Position numbers and translations under genes: made by a program
Shown here: positions 5,643 to 44,358 of the stretch, in pieces
Layout of the letters: every line of letters begins with the position of its first letter
How positions within the stretch are numbered: the first letter of the stretch is position 1
Notes under the pieces: model-generated
Databases searched by the model: none
What the model was told of the DNA's origin: nothing
What the model saw: the letters and a program-made list of their open reading frames with translations, nothing else
NCBI RefSeq assembly: GCF_002355835.1
Contig: NZ_AP017459.1
Location: 930,001 to 994,000, forward strand
Direction of reading: 5' to 3'
DNA length: 64,000 bases
DNA from: Candidatus Endomicrobiellum trichonymphae
Lineage (GTDB): Bacteria > Elusimicrobiota > Endomicrobiia > Endomicrobiales > Endomicrobiaceae

Positions 5643-8600
5643 TTAGAAACGTATTTGATACTGAAGCATCAATCTTATGTCAGATCGGTGGAACCGCTCT
5701 AGGGACTTAAGTTCGTAGCTACCGACTAAACGCAAATTATTCATAAGTTTATATATGGCTTCTATTTCATGGCGAATATCAAGCTTTCTGTCAAACTTGT
5801 CAAAAGTAACCGAATACCCAAGAAGAATTTGATTTGTAAGATTTTTTTCAACTGAATATTTTTTGCCCGAAAATAAATTTGTAAATGCACGATCTTCCTT
5901 GCCGCAAACGTCGGCATCAGTCTGAACGTAAGAAACCCTAAAATTATCGATAAATCCGGTTTTACGTAAAATCATTTTTGCAAAAGGCGTTGTAAGCGAC
6001 TGATCGACTAAATGCAAAATCCACTGCTTCATACTAAAGCCCAATACATTCTTATCTACTTTTGCATCTAGCTCGACTTTTGGAACTTTTTCAATAGCTT
6101 CATTTAGACTGTCTTTTAAATAAAATCCTACGGATCCCTGCGATATCTTAGGTATTTCGGATCTGTCAATAGTCAGTTTTATAGTTTCTGATTTATCTCC
6201 CGTTTTTGAAAATATTGTCGTTTCCCCTTCAGCAGCGATATAAACCTTATTTTCGTCTACTGCGTCTATTATTTCTACTTTGGCATTCAGTATATTAAAT
6301 TCGAATCCGAGATAATCTATTCTGCCACTTGAAGTTTCAATTATTCCATTCATTTTCAGATTATTATAAGGACCTTCGATGTATAAAAAACCGTTTATCA
6401 ACGCACAAACAAAAGAATTTTCAAATCTTGTATTCTTTGCGGTTATTAATTTCAAGTTAAACTCGGTGTTTTCAGGAATAAAAAAGTCAATATCTTTATA
6501 TTCGTCGCCAATTCTAGGAAACGTAAAACGCGTATTTTCAAGCGAAATCAATCCTGAAACTTTAGGTTTTGCTGGGGGGCCCTGTATTCTAACGTCAAAA
6601 CTCAGATCGCCTGCGGAACAATCCTGCAGAAACAATTTAGATCCTACAACGCCCTGTACTATCGGCAGTTGCGGAACGCGTAAGAAAATTCCCTTATCAT
6701 CTGTAACAAACCTTATATCAAAATCCTTGATATTAAAATTGTCAAGTTTCAGCTGTCCGTAAATATTTAATTTTCCCGATCCGGACTTAAAATTAAATTT
6801 ATCAATTCTAATTAAATTTTCAATAATCGACATTTCAACAGACATATCCTTTCCCTCAGCAATATAATCCTTTGCTCTAAAAGATCCTCCTTTTATTAAA
6901 AGTCTGCCATTATTTTTGATTTTCTCATAAGTTCCCTCAAAAGCTCCTTTCAATAGCATTTCCCCGGAACGAGGATTAATATAGTCCTTAGAGAAATACT
7001 TTAAGATGTTTAATTTGTGATCTTCTATTTCATAAACAACATTTATAGGCTTCTTTCGCATTTTTTCGGACAAAGTTTTATCAAACCATAACGGAAAATC
7101 GCCCCGGGCAGATATGCTTACTCCATTCCGATTAAACACAGTAGCTTTTTTTATACGTGCGTAATTATCCGAGAAATTAACTTCAACGTTAAAATTATCA
7201 TATGGAACTTCCATTATAGATCCGTTTATCGAGGTTATTGATATATTCCCTTCAGGCCGACTGATATTACCAGATAAACTGACATCTATATCTGCATTTC
7301 CTCTCAAAATACCGGGCAAATTTAAAACATCATTTATAAAACACCAGTCAATATTTGAACCTTTTATCCCTAAATTGACAGAATCCTTTGAAAAATCCGC
7401 TCTTAAGCCTAAAGAAGTTTTATCCTTTGAAATATTAAATTCTTTTACGGATATGACATTACCGAAAACAATAAGACCTAAAGAACTATATAAATTTACG
7501 CCATTTGCTTTCTGCAAGAGCTCTAAAGTTCCGTCTTTAACAGTATAATCAAAGCAAGAAAAAGGTAATTTATGTCTGTTCAGCCAAAAATCTCGCAAAT
7601 CAATCGTTCCGCTGTATATGGAACCACCTTTTCTCTTTGTCATTTTGCCTGATAATTCTATATTACCCAATAAATTTACGGGACCTGCGTGAGCGTTAAT
7701 CAATAATAAATCAAGTCCGTATTTCCCACTTTCAATATTAAAAAAACCTTTGCCCATTTTTATTTCACTATCAAAAATTTTTGCGGAAACGCCGCCTACC
7801 ACAATATTGCCGCCACTTATTTCAACGTCGCATTTAACATCATTTAATTTTACAGTCTTTATATAAGCGCTTTTAGCCTCTAAAAACATTTTAAGATACT
7901 GCTTTCCTTCTTTTACAGTAAACAAGCCGCTGCCCGAAAAAATTCCCTTTACGAAAGTCTTAAAACCTACAAATACATTGATAATATTTTCAGTTAAATT
8001 CTCAACACTTAAAGAGAGAACGCCGCCGTTTAAATAATTCCCTTTAAGTGCAACTTTCATTTTATCCGCTGACAACGCAGCTCTGTTTACTTTAATGCTA
8101 TTGTTTTTGTATTCCAATTCAGACGAAAAAGAAAAAGGCTTAGATAAATATTTCCCTCTTTTTATAAAAGCCAAAATTTTAACATCAGGATTATCCAGTC
8201 TACCGGAAAATTTTACGGTAGAACTCAAAAATCCGGATACCCCGGCATAAATACCTTTAATATTCGTATTTTTAAAGTAAAGACTTCCTGAAATTTTATT
8301 TTTTTTAAAATCCGCTATTGCGGATGCTTCTATGTTGTTGCCGGATTTTAAATTGGAAATTTCAAGTTTCTTTGTTGAAATAGTCACATCTGCCAAAATA
8401 TTTCCAAGAGATACTCCGGATATGCTGGCACCCGTACTTTCAATGACACCCTTAATTTCGTTGTTGCCGCTTAAGCTGCCCTGAAATGCTGCATATCCGC
8501 TTACTTTTATCCTGCCTACATTAATGTCTTTTAGATTAACGTAAAGCGAAGAAACCGGATTTGTTTCCGTAAAACCAAGCAGTCCTTTTATATCGGCTGT

Positions 8601-35575: not shown

Positions 35576-37162
35576 TTACTTTCTCAATCTCACGGCAGAC
35601 AATTGAAAAGGTCTTTCAGAAAGAACCGTTTTTTTAGTTTTAGCACTTTGATTTAGAAAGTCAGCGATAATTTTTTTACCATCGACTTCAGAGACAATCA
35701 CAGCTTGATATCCCCAGTTAACAGGATTTCCCCTTATATATTTTTGCGGTATTAAAACAGAAGCATCGTTGACTAACAAATCTGAAACAATAGAAACCCC
35801 ATCTGAAGAATATTTGTACAAAACAGCTTTATTTTTATATATTCTCAAAGCATATTCCCACCCTGATTCTGCTGCTAAAAAACCATTTACGCCCTCAAGC
35901 AACGACGTAGCTCCTACTCCATAAACATTATTTAAATCTATATAAAAATCTATAAAAGCAATGCTTTCACTCCACTTTTTATCTTCAAAATAAAGATTTA
36001 TTTTTATGCTGTTATTTTCTGAAACAACTTTTATCAATTTTAACAGCCCTTTATTGTATATCGCAATTCCGTCTAAAATACGGTCAATAACGCTTTGTCC
36101 GTCTGAGACAGAAATATCTCTTTTTCCCGCTTGAACTGCTGCATGCAAAGAATTATCTGACTTCTTATTCTCAGGATATGCAGTGCCTAACAGATGGTAA
36201 ATATTCCTAAAGATGGCATCAAATATTCCTTTTCCACCAGCTTTATCTGCAGACGCATTTCTCAGCAGATCCAGACTGCAAAGATAAATCAATTCGCTCT
36301 TGGCATTGTTATACGCATATTCTTTAAAATCAGGAAAATCCGCATAATTATTAATTAAACTTACCGCAGAATAAAGTTTTTCCATCAGCTCAATATTTAC
36401 GGGAAACTGTTTGAAACGTACATTTCTTTGCTGAAGCATATTTTTTTCAACTTCAGTTATATACAAAGGCGTCGCAGGCTTTATGTATCTGCTGTTATCA
36501 AAAAAATCTATCAGATACTCCATAAACTTCACATCTTGCAGATGTTTTTTTGTAAGCAAAACAGGTATAATATTCTCATGCTTTGTCTCAAGCCACTTTA
36601 TAATGTCTTTCTGATTGTAAGGGAAGTTTTTATAGAGCGAAAATACGGCAACGCCATAAATATCATAAGCACCTACAATATTTTCTTCAATATTGTCAGC
36701 ATTAATCCATGGTAGACTTAAACCTGCAAAATAATACAGTATCTTGTGCGATACTTCGGCAAAATTTAAAAAGATACCGAAAGCGTTCCTGTTTGTATTT
36801 GTATTAATTTCAAAATTATTTAAATTACTTGAAATATATTCTTCAAAAATACTTTGTCTGCCAGATCTCTCTGATTTTACTCCGGAAAACATTGCAAGAA
36901 CAGGTAAAACAGGTTCAGGACTCAAAGAAACCGCCGATTCTATTTTTTTGTATGAAACAAGTTTTTCCAAATTTTCAGGAACACCTATTATGGGATTTGT
37001 GGGAACAGTCATACAGAAACGCTCTGATAAAAGCATTTTATCAACAACAGGCAACAATATATCCGGACTTTCAGCGAAAAAAACTATATATCTATTTCCT
37101 TCGCCAAAAGCTGCGGAATTTAAAAAAATAAATAATGCAACATATATAATTTTCAGATGCAT
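35576..37162 (-). CDS. Secreted GH57-like protein with glucodextranase-type C-domain
   Basis: 528 aa with a signal peptide (residues 1-20, cut after AFG or nearby). The N-terminal two thirds resemble the outline of GH57-related (beta/alpha) proteins: DIYGVAVFSLYKNFPYN (about 165-181) and IPVLLTKKHLQDVKFMEYLI (about 195-215). No catalytic pair can be named with certainty. The last 140 residues have YIDLNNVYGVGATSLLEGVN, WEYALRIY and IPQKYIRGNPVNWGYQAVIV, typical of the glucodextranase C-terminal/CBM9-like module attached to amylolytic enzymes. A periplasmic glucan-related role is inference. It is driven by a consensus promoter shared, back to back, with a broken glycosidase gene. Confidence 0.6.
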   Translation of the reverse strand: MHLKIIYVALFIFLNSAAFGEGNRYIVFFAESPDILLPVVDKMLLSERFCMTVPTNPIIGVPENLEKLVSYKKIESAVSLSPEPVLPVLAMFSGVKSERSGRQSIFEEYISSNLNNFEINTNTNRNAFGIFLNFAEVSHKILYYFAGLSLPWINADNIEENIVGAYDIYGVAVFSLYKNFPYNQKDIIKWLETKHENIIPVLLTKKHLQDVKFMEYLIDFFDNSRYIKPATPLYITEVEKNMLQQRNVRFKQFPVNIELMEKLYSAVSLINNYADFPDFKEYAYNNAKSELIYLCSLDLLRNASADKAGGKGIFDAIFRNIYHLLGTAYPENKKSDNSLHAAVQAGKRDISVSDGQSVIDRILDGIAIYNKGLLKLIKVVSENNSIKINLYFEDKKWSESIAFIDFYIDLNNVYGVGATSLLEGVNGFLAAESGWEYALRIYKNKAVLYKYSSDGVSIVSDLLVNDASVLIPQKYIRGNPVNWGYQAVIVSEVDGKKIIADFLNQSAKTKKTVLSERPFQLSAVRLRK

Positions 37163-37201: not shown

Positions 37202-37223
37202 TTTTTAATGCAATAATCATGCT

Positions 37224-38373
37224 ATGAAAAAACAAAGTCTGAGTTTTTTTATTCCTCTGCCAGTCTTTTCATTTGTCATTACAGAATGCGCAAACTATGA
37301 GGCAAATTCTAAACTAGTAACATTGGAACAACTTTAACAAGAAGAGCAATCAGATGCAGATGTTGCTTCAACAGTTTTAACTGACATAAAACCGGGAAAA
37401 AAAGCAAAAAGAAAATATATAGGAGGCTACACCTTTCCGCACTGATAAGCGGCTCTGAAAAGCACAGAAGAATCGCGGCAGACCTTTTTGATAATGCGGA
37501 GAGTTAAATACCGCTGTAATAGATATAAAAGAATACGAAGGAAAGGGTTTCATTGACGGCGTAAAAATTGTGAAGGCAAACGGAGCTTATGCGAAAGCAA
37601 TCCCTGATCTAAAAAAATATATTTCCAATTTAAAAGAAAAAAACATTTACACCATAGCAAGAATTGTTGTTTTCAGAGACAATACCATGGCAAGGAAAAA
37701 ACCTGAACTTGCAGTAAAAAATCCCGATGGCACTATTTGGACTGACAGAAGAGACATAGCATGGCTTGACCCTTACAATAAGGACTATAGCTGAAAGAGC
37801 GGTGAATATAGGTTTTGACGAAATACAATTTGATGCTTCCCATCCTGACGGCAATATAAAAAAACTGCTGTTAAAGCAAGCTGCATTCCGCGGATAAAGC
37901 CTTAAAAGCTTTAGTAGACTTTTTAAAAGAGTCCAACAAACGGCTTAAAACTAAAGGCGCAAAAATATCCATCGATGTTTTCGGTTTAACAACCACGGCA
38001 ACAGATATGATATGAGTATAGGACAAAAAATAGTTGAAATGACGGAATGGGGTTGATTACGTAGCCCTATGATTTATCAGTCGCATTACGGAAAATGGAA
38101 TTACGGAATTGCAGAGCCGAATAAAGAGCCGTACAAAATTGTCTATTTTGCTCTAGCGGACGCACTGAAAAGAATAACCGCCGAAAAACTACGTCCATGA
38201 CTACAAGGACTTCAGTTTAGGATATAAATACGGCATAGATGAAGTAAAAGCACAAATACAGGCATGTTATGATAATAAAGTAAGCAGCTGGCTTTTATAG
38301 AATCCTAGATGCATTTACACAAAAGATGCTCTAAAAGGACAAGAGGACGATACGTTTATCCCTCGAAAATATT
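37224..38373 (+). pseudogene. DUF4015-type putative glycoside hydrolase, degenerate
   Basis: Begins MKKQSLSFFIPLPVFSFVIT, a signal peptide, then needs at least four frame changes. Family stretches: AVIDIKEYEG (about 37512-37545), KNIYTIARIVVFRDNTMARK (37641-37700), AVKNPDGTIW (37708-37740), RDIAWLDPYNKDY (37752-37790), ISIDVFGLTTTATD (about 37965-38008), VDYVSPMIYQSHYGKWNYGI (about 38053-38115) and AQIQACYDNKVSSWLLW (about 38253-38303). This order is that of the DUF4015 TIM-barrel proteins thought to be glycosidases. Stops such as the TGA at 37792 end every frame early. It is divergent from, and shares control DNA with, the secreted GH57-like gene. Confidence 0.85.
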
Positions 38374-38466
38374 AAAAACCGCAAAAGCTAAACAAACTTT
38401 GAAGCAGAAAAGATATAAATAAAAATTAAATGTCTAATTAAAACCTAACTAATACCGTAAAATGAT

Positions 38467-39620
38467 TTATTCTTCTGTCAATATATCGCCCAATTTCGGG
38501 TTATCATCTTTATTTGAGTACTTCCTTATGAGTTCTTTCTCCCTGTCAAATTCAAGTTTTTTTATTGATAGTTCTATTTTTCTGTTTTTTGTATCAATTT
38601 TTATTATTTTAGCCTCAACTTCCTCACCTTTTTTAAGAAAATATTCCGGACGTTTTACTCTTTCAAGCCATGAAAAATTGTTTATATTTATAAATACTTC
38701 AATTTCCTCTGGAAGTTTTACAAACACACCAAAAGGCACAGTTTTTTTTGCACTACGACTCTAACAACAGTTCCCAGCGAATAATTTTGCCTGAACGCTT
38801 CGTCCCAGTGATTTATAAACATTTCTCTAACTGATAAACTGATTTTTTTATCTTTATCCACATTTATAATTTCTACTTTTATTTTTTGTCCTTCTTTAAC
38901 TTCTTTTTTCAATATCGCTTCGCCGTCATTCCATGCATTCGGAAGAATGAAGCAATCTGTTCAAGTTCTACAAAAGCACCGTAACTCATAACTGCTGTTA
39001 CTATACCTTCCACAATAAGTCCTACAGGAAATCTTTTATCCGCAAATTCCCACGGATACGGAGTGAAATTTTTCAATTCTATGCCACGCTACATCACTGA
39101 TATGCAGAAGTCCGTCAATTTCGCCAAGATTAATAAAAGCTCCGAAATTGGTGATCTTTGACACCGTATCGTAGAGTATCTGCCCATCAGCAATACTTTC
39201 CAAAGCAGATGCTCTTGCTGCATTTTTTGCGTCTTCAATAATTTTTTTGATTGTACCGGATAGCCGTTTAGCATTTTTAAAAGCTTCCTGTGCCGCGTCT
39301 CATTTTGTTTCTTCAATAACTTTCATATAAGAAAGAACAGGCTGTCCGCAAGCACTTAAAATCTTTACTTTTACGCTGACTTTAAGTTCAAGCGGCACTT
39401 TGTTTTCCTCAAACTCTTTTTGGGGAATTATTCCTTCGGACTTCACTCCCAAATCAACCATAAAACCGTCTGCATTTTCTTCAACAATCGTCACCTCAAG
39501 CTCTTTCTCAAAATCAGCATTGTCGGTTTTATCATAATTTCTCATCAAATCGGACATACTGATATTTTCACCGTATTCAAAACTTGTCACCGCTTTATCT
39601 AAATTGCTATTTCCCATCAT
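38467..39620 (-). pseudogene. rpsA: Ribosomal protein S1-like gene, broken
   Basis: Multi-S1-domain protein in the canonical place after ispH. The start is ATG 39620 or 39617 behind AGGAGA. Domain 1 (EVTIVEENADGFMVDLGVKS) is followed by an in-frame TGA at 39302-39300, between ETK and DAAQEAF. The same frame continues through ISDVAWHRIEKF to about 39080. A slip leads to PYPWEFADKRFPVGLIVEGI (about 39070-39010), another to AILKKEVKEGQKIKVEIINV (38925-38865). A third, at an A8 tract (38742-38749), leads to the last S1 domain, GVFVKLPEEIEVFININNFS. Four lesions mean no full product. A second S1 gene elsewhere, or dispensability, must be assumed. Confidence 0.9.
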
Positions 39621-39659
39621 TTCGCTTCTTCTCCTAAAATTAAGGTGCAAACTGAAATT

Positions 39660-40562
39660 TCATTTAATGTCAGCGGCTGAAATAAATTCAAGATAATGTT
39701 TTGCACCAACTTCCTTTATCCTCATTTCAATCTCCTTTATTATCCAATCAGGCGTTGATGCTCCTGCAGTAAGACCAACGCTGTTTATATTTTTAAACCA
39801 CTTTTCTTTTATACTGCAAGCTGTTTCAATGTGGTATGTCTTTGTTTTCTCCGAGCAAATCTGTGCAAGTCTTGTAGTGTTGCCCGAATTTTTACCACCT
39901 ATTACTATCATCAAATCGACGTTTTTTGCAAGTTTTTCAGCTGCTTTTTGTCTGTCAAGAGTCGCTTTGCATATCGTATTATAAACTTTCGTTTTATAGC
40001 GTTTTTTCAAAACTTTTATAATACTGTTAAAATTTTCAGGAGTCTGCGTCGTCTGGCTTACAATATTTAAATCCCCTCTGGCTCTGAATTTCTGCGCTTC
40101 TTTTATATTTTCAACAATGATACACTTACCGCTACCGTAAGATACGAGCGCAATCACTTCAGGATGAATTTTCTCGCCAACCACTATTATTGTTTTATCT
40201 TTAGACTTTATATCCGTGCTTAACCGTTTTATAGTATTCTGAGCTCTCTTTACAAAAGGACATGCGGCATCTATTACGTTAATATTTTTATTTTCTTCAA
40301 GTTTTTTATGAAGATTACATGGTATGCCATGCGTGCGTAAAATTATAGAACCACTTTTCACCTTTTTCGGATCCTTTAAAGTTTTTATGCCTTTTTTCTC
40401 AAGCCTTTTAACTTCCTGTGGATTATGTATAACAGGTCCTAAAGTATATACTTTGCGCTCTTTGCTAGCAGTTTTTTCAGTCAAATCTATAGCTCTTCTA
40501 ACGCCAAAACAAAAACCTGCGTTTTCTGCTATTTTAACTCTTAACTTTGTCTTTAACTCCAC
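39660..40562 (-). CDS. ispH: 4-hydroxy-3-methylbut-2-enyl diphosphate reductase
   Basis: Iron-sulfur enzyme of the last MEP-pathway step, making IPP and DMAPP. 300 aa. The three cluster cysteines are in NAGFCFGVRRA (about residue 18), DAACPFVKRA (about 100) and NTICKATLDRQ (about 195). HGIP and the TQTPENF segment are also as expected. The start is GTG at 40562 with AAGGA seven bases before it; no ATG fits. It lies in the aroA-plsC-ispH-rpsA order known from other bacteria. Confidence 0.95.
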   Translation of the reverse strand: MELKTKLRVKIAENAGFCFGVRRAIDLTEKTASKERKVYTLGPVIHNPQEVKRLEKKGIKTLKDPKKVKSGSIILRTHGIPCNLHKKLEENKNINVIDAACPFVKRAQNTIKRLSTDIKSKDKTIIVVGEKIHPEVIALVSYGSGKCIIVENIKEAQKFRARGDLNIVSQTTQTPENFNSIIKVLKKRYKTKVYNTICKATLDRQKAAEKLAKNVDLMIVIGGKNSGNTTRLAQICSEKTKTYHIETACSIKEKWFKNINSVGLTAGASTPDWIIKEIEMRIKEVGAKHYLEFISAADIK

Positions 40563-40615: not shown

Positions 40616-41206
40616 TTACATTCCAGATATTATATCTAAAACCCTTTTTGACAGGTTTATATAATCATTTTTTACAAAGTCTTTCGGAGGATATACCGGC
40701 TTTCCGAATTTTATTTTTATTTGTTTAAACTTTAACATCATATTCGTGTTTTCTATTTTTGCAGGAATTAAAGGCACTTGAGTGTTGCACGCTATCATTC
40801 CGGCACCCGCTCTTGCTTTTCCTATTCTGCCATCTTTTGAACGCGTGCCTTCTGGAAATACCAAAAGTAAACATCCGCTTTTGAGAAGAGAAAATGCATT
40901 TCTCACTGCAGAAATATCCTGCATGCCTCTTTTAACGGGAAAAGCATTTGTCTGCTTAATTATCCAACCAAAACCAGGGATATCAAACAACTCTTTTTTT
41001 GCCATAAAATGCACAGGACGCTTTATTGCAGAACCAGTTAGCGTAGAATCAAAAAAACCTATGTGGTTAGGAGCAATAACAGCTCCACCTGATTGCGGTA
41101 TATTCTCTGCACCCTCAATATGCCATCTATAAAACAAGCTGAACATAATTCTAAACATCTGTTTACCCGCTAAGAATAAAATTGAGGATTTTTCTTTCAC
41201 CTGCAT
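40616..41206 (-). CDS. plsC: 1-acyl-glycerol-3-phosphate acyltransferase
   Basis: 196 aa membrane-associated enzyme that makes phosphatidic acid from lysophosphatidic acid. Catalytic NHIGFFD (the NHx4D motif, about residues 48-54) and the substrate-binding FPEGTRSKDG (about 119-128) are intact. A hydrophobic N-terminal segment is present. It overlaps the end of aroA by ten bases. In related clusters a cytidylate kinase gene (cmk) sits between aroA and plsC; here it is absent. Confidence 0.92.
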   Translation of the reverse strand: MQVKEKSSILFLAGKQMFRIMFSLFYRWHIEGAENIPQSGGAVIAPNHIGFFDSTLTGSAIKRPVHFMAKKELFDIPGFGWIIKQTNAFPVKRGMQDISAVRNAFSLLKSGCLLLVFPEGTRSKDGRIGKARAGAGMIACNTQVPLIPAKIENTNMMLKFKQIKIKFGKPVYPPKDFVKNDYINLSKRVLDIISGM

Positions 41207-42521: not shown

Positions 42522-43367
42522 TTAATCAACATATTTTAAAAAGTTTAAATATTTTTGTTCAGGCAGAACAGTTAAATAATTTGAGATAAATATTTCTCTG
42601 CCGGTCTGATTTCCAAACTCAGATACATTACGCATTCCATACTTCATATTCCAAGGGAAAATATCGGCAAAAGAGAACAAATCCCTTATATAATCGCTAT
42701 CGTCATACGTTATAAGCCATTTATGCTTACACTTTTTCATATTTTCAGCAAAACGCCTATGGTCAAAACTTTTATGTAAATTCCCGTTTTTTCCATAAAG
42801 CGCTGATTTTCTTGCCGAGAAATATGGATGATCCAAAAAGATAAAAACAGAATTACCCTCTTTTGCAAGCAGCTTTTCATAATCAAGATTTGTTATTTTT
42901 GTATTTTTAACTATTTTTTCAATATTTTTCAATCTCAATATACTGCTTTCAGTAAACCGTTCTCTAAAAGCTGCATCGCTGTAACCACCGCTTAAACTTG
43001 TACCTGAGAATGTAATACGATTGTAAACAAAAAAAGCAGCGGCTTGCTCCAAACCTGTAAAATTGCAGAGACTGTCGTTGAGAAACTCATAAAGTTTTTT
43101 TCCGTCATCATATCTTTTCTTCCATTCATAAATCTTGCCGACCAGCCTATTCATATCTTTTTGGCTGTACTGCCAAAATTCATAAAGTTCAGCATATAAA
43201 TCATTCACCCAAAAAGATTTATCGTGAAAAATTTGCTTTAAACGTATAAATGTCGATCCACCACCTAAAAACGGTTCTCTGTATTCTTTAAAATCCGGAA
43301 TAATCTTTAATATTAAATCAACAGCCCTGCTTTTGTCGCCGGGATATCTCAAGGGGCTTTTTATCAC
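42522..43367 (-). CDS. D12-class adenine-specific DNA methyltransferase
   Basis: 281 aa N6-adenine methyltransferase. The AdoMet-binding motif I appears as KSPLRYPGDKSRAV plus EPFLGGGSTFI (residues about 3-38). The catalytic motif IV, normally DPPY, reads DHPY in VFIFLDHPYFSARKS (about 153-167; codons GAT CAT CCA TAT). The remaining D12 layout (NRITFSGTSLSGGY, about 117-130) is good. It is the modification half of a type II pair: its ATG overlaps the stop of the restriction gene by four bases (ATGA). The first proline of motif IV varies in some families, but histidine is unusual and may lower activity. Confidence 0.85.
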   Translation of the reverse strand: MIKSPLRYPGDKSRAVDLILKIIPDFKEYREPFLGGGSTFIRLKQIFHDKSFWVNDLYAELYEFWQYSQKDMNRLVGKIYEWKKRYDDGKKLYEFLNDSLCNFTGLEQAAAFFVYNRITFSGTSLSGGYSDAAFRERFTESSILRLKNIEKIVKNTKITNLDYEKLLAKEGNSVFIFLDHPYFSARKSALYGKNGNLHKSFDHRRFAENMKKCKHKWLITYDDSDYIRDLFSFADIFPWNMKYGMRNVSEFGNQTGREIFISNYLTVLPEQKYLNFLKYVD

Positions 43368-44358
43368 TTTATCCCCTCTATCTGAACAATAAAGTCATTT
43401 TCTTCTGCCTCTTTAAAAATTCTCTCTACAAATTCTTTTTGTTTTTCGGATAAACTATTTGTTTTAAAACAATTATCACCATCTTTTTGCACCGACTTGG
43501 GATACAAAATCATTTTAACCAAACCATCTTTTATATCAGACGCACCCGGCAAAACTGAATTTCTACTGTGTTTACTTTCCACGAGCTTTACAATATTTTT
43601 ATTCAGCACAACCTCATCAACCGTAAAGAAATACTTGCCGCCTAAATAATTTGAAATTGTTATTTTAGCTTTTGATAATGTATTCAAACTTTCCTTAGGC
43701 TGTATCGTTTTGTATTCTCTTACTTGTGCTTTCCTTGCTTTTTCTCTTGAAAACTCCACGAAATCTTTAATATTCTTACTAATCTTATTCCTAAAAACAT
43801 CAATTCCTTTAAAACCATGAAGTTTTACTCCTGTTTTTTTCTCAATTCTTAAATAGCTGTACTTTATTTTATCTGCTATAAAATGCAAATCTGTCAATTC
43901 TTTTAAATTCCAATGCAACGCTGAACTGTGATAATCTTCTATTTCCTTTATTTTAGATATAATATAATCATTATCAAATTTTTGTTCTGCAATCTTATTT
44001 TCTAACTTCTTCGCATCTGAATAGTAAGCAAAAATCACGTAAATATCAAGCAAAGACATCATAGAAACAGTATCCCATTGCAGAAAATCCCTATCGCCGC
44101 TTTTACCCTCATCTTTCATTACCGGAATAACAGTAATTTTTTTGATATATGTATAGTATCATATATTCTTGCATACGGATATGAACGCGTTCTTTTCGGA
44201 GATACCCATTTCGAAATCGCAAACAGATTTTGTCCATCAAAAATCAAAGAGCTTGACGGAGATGAGTCTATATCAAAATTTTTCAAATTAAATTTAGTCA
44301 GATTTTTCTCAAGCGCTTTTTTGTATTTTATTCCCTTAATTTTTCCGGTTATATCCAT
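43364..44358 (-). pseudogene. Type II restriction endonuclease, one frameshift at A7
   Basis: Two frames together give about 330 aa. The first (44358-44119) starts MDITGKIKG and ends out of frame after IYDTIHISKK. The second resumes ITVIPVMKDEGKSGDRDFLQ and runs to 43364. The junction is an A7 tract (T7 at 44137-44143 on the plus strand); one more A restores a single gene. A PD-(D/E)xK-like centre is visible near the C-terminus: DEVVLNKNIVKLVESKHSR, with E-S-K. It forms one unit with the methyltransferase that follows. The break may be true decay, rare transcriptional slippage or a sequencing error. Confidence 0.75.

Follow-up and report, generated by a model that had tools for sequence, protein, structure and literature searches.

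The gene encoding ribosomal protein S1, rpsA, carries several disabling lesions in a 64,000-nucleotide stretch of the genome of Candidatus Endomicrobiellum trichonymphae, a symbiont of termite-gut protists (contig NZ_AP017459.1, positions 930,001 to 994,000; hereafter, the window), and is broken or missing in other members of the genus. Very probably, S1 became unneeded in these flagellate endosymbionts and rpsA has decayed or been deleted behind ispH at least six times, the window copy being recently dead; the genomes concerned would be served by S1-free ribosomes. The stages of loss that we observed range from a fresh pseudogene to clean excision. Ribosomal proteins S2 and S21 and the Shine-Dalgarno (SD) sites are retained, as is the anti-SD sequence in the window genome (G000). 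S1 is essential in Escherichia coli and is often regarded there as a core component of translation initiation. A genus that loses S1 repeatedly beside relatives that keep it can show when the protein becomes dispensable, and sister pairs such as G000, which lacks S1 (S1−), and G020, which retains it (S1+), provide a natural experiment on its role.

The rpsA pseudogene of the window

The window locus was aligned with that of G020, the closest genome to G000 in the genus (ispH 93% identical), in which the gene order is the same and rpsA is intact. The open frame in G020 comprises 572 codons, 559 from the first ATG. Its product, P0002, scored 652.4 bits on the NCBIfam model NF004952 (30S ribosomal protein S1; cut-off 524) and contains six PF00575 stretches. 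As judged by this equivalog score and the six S1/OB domains, the ancestral gene is that of ribosomal protein S1 (bS1, rpsA). The features of the locus are as follows; the lesions were placed by DNA alignment against the intact G020 gene, and lengths of products are in amino acids (aa).

38467..39620, minus strand: pseudogene of rpsA (ribosomal protein S1), derived from a six-domain gene of ~559 codons, by the same alignment
39631..39635, minus strand: AGGAG, an SD-like site retained ahead of the dead rpsA, read from the sequence
39303..39620, minus strand: open N-terminal fragment of 106 aa that covers only the region of S1 domain 1, 81% identical to G020
39300..39302, minus strand: premature TGA, at the place of a tryptophan codon in G020
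39250/39249, minus strand: junction of a 171-bp deletion, in frame
39076/39075, minus strand: junction of a 92-bp deletion, a frameshift running into a stop
38959/38958 and 38939/38938, minus strand: deletions of 11 bp and 2 bp
38742..38749, minus strand: A8 tract with a net +2 frameshift, which puts the rpsA tail out of frame
38628/38627, minus strand: junction of a 246-bp deletion, in frame, joining equivalent points of two adjacent S1 repeats
38467..38739, minus strand: open C-terminal fragment of 90 aa with a single S1 domain (PF00575, 43.7 bits)
39660..40562, minus strand: ispH, intact, directly upstream of rpsA and the anchor of the locus (PF02401 LytB, 307 bits)
40616..41206, minus strand: plsC-like acyltransferase gene, intact, the second anchor (PF01553, 104 bits)

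The 92-, 11- and 2-bp deletions sum to 105 bp, and the original frame is restored downstream of them. Further in-frame changes relative to G020 comprise a 6-bp deletion ahead of the TGA and small changes of 3 bp. With a TGA after domain 1, frameshifts and three large deletions, the window copy has no continuous frame containing domains 1-3, and the two fragments that we tested scored far under the NCBIfam cut-offs for S1. By its several disabling lesions relative to the intact orthologue, the window copy is classed as a pseudogene.

A first-pass annotation of the window had described rpsA as destroyed in its normal operon by an in-frame TGA, probably once TGG, by frame slips near 39080 and 38930, and by an A8 slip at 38742. 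The remnant does occupy the minus strand immediately after ispH, and both the lost tryptophan codon and the A8 lesion (net +2 at 38749-38742) were borne out by the alignment. The two slips are genuine lesions of another kind, namely the 92-bp deletion and the pair of 11- and 2-bp deletions, and the two large in-frame deletions had been overlooked. The gene was also said to be broken between S1 domains; it is broken, but the deletions intrude into the domains, some of which are mostly or entirely gone.

Chance or sequencing error is not a credible cause, because seven lesions in rpsA stand against intact neighbours in a near-complete genome (1.13 Mb in 4 contigs, rated 99.58% complete). It is scarcely conceivable that recoding, with TGA read as tryptophan and slippage on the A8 tract, still yields a working protein. 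The TGA does occupy a tryptophan position of G020, and A8 is a typical slippery tract. However, TGA ends 6 of the 27 conserved open reading frames (ORFs) of the ribosomal operon, in which TGG occurs 34 times, and we therefore take TGA to be a stop rather than a sense codon in G000. Moreover, the 92-bp deletion runs to a stop and is no homopolymer slip, and some domains are largely or wholly absent.

No second multi-S1 gene or complete rpsA was found in G000, either in a PF00575 profile search or in a protein search with intact S1. The six PF00575 matches in this genome were PNPase (TIGR03591, 746 bits), NusA (TIGR01953, 365 bits) and four pieces of the dead rpsA. It is very unlikely that the flagellate host or a co-resident bacterium supplies S1 function, or that the S1 domain of PNPase does so. 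Host import has been discussed for lost ribosomal proteins (PMC11020763) and the PNPase of G000 does carry an S1 domain, but no candidate gene for a substitute was found in G000, in a search confined to the symbiont genome. A substitute would also be unnecessary given SD-led initiation.

The ratios of nonsynonymous to synonymous substitution (dN/dS) relative to G020 were 0.77 (N-terminal 106 codons), 0.31, 0.20, 0.44 and 0.43 for the five pieces of rpsA, values that derive from few changes and include branch time predating the loss. Those of the neighbours were 0.12 for ispH, 0.21 for plsC, 0.18 for aroA and 0.28 for the ORF at 35576-37162. The N-terminal piece (20.8 nonsynonymous and 6.2 synonymous changes) is the least constrained of the five, and it is probably not a mini-gene. 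That it is still made and acts on the ribosome as a one-domain mini-S1 would accord with its open frame and its retained start and SD site, and one-domain S1 proteins have been reported in Mollicutes (PMC6705787). This is nevertheless very improbable: its dN/dS far exceeds the 0.12-0.21 of ispH, plsC and aroA, it has no Pfam hit of its own, and no trace of rpsA was present at six of the other S1− loci examined. In addition, the minimal E. coli protein for 30S binding is given as domains 1-3 (PMC3858243).

According to Pfam, the minus-strand genes leading into rpsA encode an aminotransferase, DAHP synthase, EPSP synthase (aroA), PlsC and IspH/LytB, with a methylase pair interspersed; ispH, plsC and aroA are intact ORFs. 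Two other features of the window were noted. Convergent with the dead rpsA, at 37203-38400 on the plus strand, lies what is left of a gene for a putative glycosyl hydrolase (DUF4015), broken by stops and frameshifts; its G020 counterpart is an intact frame of 399 codons (PF13200, 358 bits). The minus-strand region at 42522-44358 contains a D12 class adenine methyltransferase gene (PF02086), preceded in the operon by frames of 251 and 79 aa that match a single 380-codon frame of G020 without a Pfam hit, perhaps representing a broken restriction enzyme next to its methylase.

Loss of rpsA across the genus

The first-pass annotation had treated the loss as an event of a single genome. By contrast, our survey of 41 genomes of the genus revealed that it recurs. 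A full or nearly full rpsA frame was present in 19 (G001, G002, G003, G005, G007, G008, G010, G011, G012, G014, G015, G016, G017, G018, G020, G026, G035, G036 and G040), including one truncated by a contig end (G008) and one whose first codons are out of frame (G018). Two were ambiguous, the gene being cut by contig ends in G034 and represented by disordered fragments in G019. Five carried remnants behind ispH (G000, G038, G004, G009 and G032), those of the latter four containing stops. In seven, ispH was found and rpsA was undetectable (G013, G023, G027, G029, G030, G033 and G037), although in G037 a contig end ~700 bp behind ispH limits the view to the near part of the site. Neither gene was found in the remaining eight (G006, G021, G022, G024, G025, G028, G031 and G039). 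Thus, 31 genomes gave an ispH hit; of these, 17 have rpsA, 12 have it broken or have lost it altogether, and 2 are ambiguous.

The sites behind ispH differ between genomes. The convergent DUF4015 gene found on the far side of rpsA in G020 lies only ~370 bp from ispH in G030 and ~800 bp from it in G027; rpsA has thus been excised from between its two neighbours. A corrinoid adenosyltransferase gene adjoins ispH within ~150 bp in G013 and G029, a decarboxylase-like gene lies 43 bp from ispH in G023, and a convergent peptidase M23 gene adjoins it in G033.

These counts also bear on a rival reading, in which errors of sequencing or assembly produced the breaks and gaps in drafts produced the absences elsewhere. 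The relatives are indeed drafts, and the 8 of 41 in which neither ispH nor rpsA was found are uninformative. However, in the window three large deletions and a nonsense codon between intact neighbours are judged to refute an artefact, and rpsA is broken or gone beside ispH in 12 of 31 genomes. Three yardstick proteins were recovered in most of the 41 genomes: uL2 in 38, uS2 in 36 (that of G037 a fragment) and bS21 in 38 (that of G019 with stops). Incompleteness therefore does not explain the absence of rpsA, and an artefact is highly improbable overall. G006 (95% complete) lacks plsC, ispH and rpsA together, and was not scored as a loss because this joint absence resembles a missing contig. 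In G018 and G026, rpsA was present although plsC and ispH were not found. Of the 12 genomes in which loss is directly evident, 11 (all but G037) retained the gene for bS21, and S1 and S21 coexist in all 19 S1+ genomes of the genus.

Some genomes of the survey merit separate description. In G018 (contig C32), a 522-codon rpsA frame is intact except at its start, where ~35 codons are out of frame; in its sister G019 (C82), the rpsA contig is disordered with a repeated stretch, and there is no rpsA behind ispH. Either early decay or assembly error could account for the state of these two. The draft genome G010 has two different full-length rpsA genes (C2:10671-12356 and C33:120-1784), only the second of which adjoins ispH in the stretches examined; perhaps the draft combines two strains or is mildly contaminated. 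G025 comprises ~200 kb in 4 contigs, is rated 66% complete and gave no S1-domain match at E ≤ 0.001; if real, it is an extremely reduced member of the genus. The small genomes G021, G022 and G024 have plsC and gave no ispH or rpsA hit.

To count losses, we built a tree with FastTree from 26 S10-spc-alpha operon proteins in 42 genomes (4421 columns) and rooted it on G043, G046 and G047. Loss was taken as irreversible and was counted on 32 confidently scored taxa, of which 22 were S1+ (including the three outgroups) and 10 were S1−. Left unscored were the eight genomes without ispH and rpsA, G019, G034, G041, and G027 and G029, which have no uL2 hit and fall outside the ribosomal tree. At least six losses are needed: in G000; in G004 and G009; in G032; in G023; in G030; and in G013, G033, G037 and G038. 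Support was 1.00 for G000 with G020, 0.99 for G004 with G009, and 0.99 for the placement of G023 with the S1+ genome G035. The true number may exceed six, because G038 keeps most of rpsA as a pseudogene while the genomes grouped with it (G013, G033 and G037) have no trace of the gene. A weaker tree of ispH and plsC, made to place G027 and G029, put the former with G030 and the latter with G013.

Outside the genus, an rpsA match was found in each of the 33 genomes that represent genera g3-g14 of the family (76 genomes in total), that of G073 spanning 341 codons; in genus g2, the rpsA piece of G041 is cut by a contig end and G042 (59% complete) had no match. In the phylum, 304 of 340 genomes, and 188 of the 191 of high quality, had a match at E ≤ 1e-20, a tally that counts the broken genes of G000 and G038 as matches, that distant members may escape, and in which 16 matchless genomes are unlisted.

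Translation signals and the preferred mechanism

The first-pass annotation had also proposed that S1 loss would fit leaderless promoters in the window. We scanned the starts of 33 window ORFs of at least 200 aa (35 were found, and 2 without an ATG near the front were dropped). An SD-like site preceded 61% of these starts as compared with 24% of matched internal ATGs. By contrast, a TATAAT-like box at −15 to −4 was not in excess, occurring at 3% of starts and 7% of internal ATGs. In the window, therefore, neither the −10 boxes at starts nor the weak SD sites expected of leaderless-dominated translation were found, and the proposal was not supported. The 16S 3' end GGATCACCTCCTT, which contains the anti-SD, occurs once in G000; the reversed control had no match.

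SD strength was then compared between 23 S1+ genomes (outgroups and G019 included) and 10 S1− genomes, leaving out the unsettled G006, G021, G022, G024, G025, G028, G031, G034 and G041. The comparison used 27 families of operon ORFs with aligned starts, at most 26 per genome; some start columns lie on an internal methionine (for example, those of the L084 ORFs at 8214 and 11349), an imprecision that affects the S1+ and S1− groups equally. The mean SD energy per genome did not differ (−5.47 kcal/mol in S1+ and −5.57 kcal/mol in S1− genomes, P = 0.35). Sites at or below −4.5 kcal/mol made up 65% in both groups, as compared with 30% and 36%, respectively, after shuffling.

These results make it very unlikely that the loss followed a shift to leaderless mRNAs. 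Such mRNAs are described as not needing S1 and as common in the S1-poor Mollicutes (PMC4014445), but the window starts favour SD sites over −10-like boxes, and SD strength is equal with and without S1. Because of the SD results in the window and in the S1+ and S1− genomes, we prefer an SD-based mechanism to the leaderless precedent. Most likely, S1 became dispensable through SD-led initiation on AU-rich leaders. S1-free 30S subunits would recruit mRNA by SD pairing on such leaders, which would be weakly structured, and drift in small clonal populations would fix losses of rpsA once its benefit was small. It is also likely that flagellate endosymbionts convergently discard S1 at a genome size of ~1 Mb, with SD use unweakened.

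Several observations weigh against dispensability through SD-led initiation and against the count of losses. In Mollicutes, the dispensability of S1 has been tied to leaderless mRNAs, and SD-containing mRNAs usually use S1 (PMC4014445). Many of the SD sites found here are only moderate in strength. The start-region fold was −5.16 kcal/mol in S1− and −5.59 kcal/mol in S1+ genomes, a difference uncorrected for GC content (0.307 vs 0.330). Matches to the anti-SD were limited to 8 of the 41 genomes of the genus, and few of these 8 are S1−; the probable reason is that rRNA genes are often missing from drafts. The S1− genomes other than G000 are drafts with rated completeness of 52-87%. The number of losses is tree-dependent: the placement of G032 is poorly supported, the ispH and plsC tree disagrees with the ribosomal tree in pairing G037 with G036 and G033 with G023, and G013 and G029 probably share one loss because they have the same corrinoid adenosyltransferase neighbour. 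Finally, rpsA is not uniquely relaxed, as the ORF at 35576-37162 has a dN/dS of 0.253 as compared with 0.288 for intact rpsA. 

In favour of a gene that had become dispensable, rpsA in this genus evolves faster relative to ispH already while intact than it does elsewhere in the family, a sign of prior relaxation. Its divergence relative to ispH was 1.24-fold in the genus (15 of 19 S1+ genomes, 99 of 105 pairs), 0.98 among 16 members of the family outside the genus (116 of 120 pairs) and 1.01 in the closest genera (44 pairs), although these ratios derive from non-independent pairs, with pairs too close in ispH dropped.

Comparison with known systems

Progressive genome erosion has been described in Endomicrobiellum (PMC11257099), the same lineage and the same process of loss. 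The main text of that study (mBio 2024), supplements aside, contains no 'rpsA', 'translation' or 'pseudogene', and the main text of an mSphere 2022 study (PMC8809381), its pseudogene table aside, has no rpsA. The text of a comparative study of non-SD genes (PMC5397173) contains no 'Elusimicrobi-', and a further paper (PMC10783764) tabulates anti-SD types by class and cites an S1 paper. In the literature searched for rpsA or ribosomal protein S1 in Endomicrobium, we found no report of repeated loss; older genome papers and supplements may list the pseudogene.

If S1 was indeed discarded as proposed, it would be among the first ribosomal proteins lost, and the onset of ribosome erosion in symbionts would shift to much larger genomes. 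The insect symbiont Portiera has a genome much smaller than 1.13 Mb. Its gene order includes rpsA (PMC7821994). In 'tipping-point' symbionts, the erosion of ribosomal protein genes is placed below ~200 kb (PMC11020763). The present case resembles theirs in that a ribosomal protein gene decays in an obligate intracellular symbiont, and differs in genome size (1.13 Mb) and in the retention of the other ribosomal proteins tested.

With respect to mechanism, S1 is described as dispensable in E. coli for an mRNA whose SD is strong and whose start region is unstructured, and strong SDs together with low GC may obviate the need for S1 in Bacillus subtilis and similar bacteria (PMC3858243). This S1-independent initiation corresponds to the mode proposed here for the S1-free ribosome, although S1 is still essential in E. 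coli.

The closest parallel is provided by the Mollicutes, for which seven independent losses of S1 are reported and in which ~80% of mRNAs keep SD sequences (Grosjean et al. 2014, PMC4014445). According to the same source, S21 is regarded as essential where S1 is absent, and S1 and S21 are mutually exclusive. As in the Mollicutes, S1 was lost repeatedly within one lineage of reduced genomes. At the sequence level, no other rpsA was found in G000, which keeps the anti-SD; bS21 is retained in all but one of the 12 genomes that have lost S1, and SD sites are retained in the window and in 10 S1− genomes. Unlike in the Mollicutes, S1 and S21 coexist in the S1+ relatives, the S1 concerned has six domains, the hosts of the loss are flagellate endosymbionts of an Elusimicrobiota genus, and its stages can be followed from pseudogene to excision.
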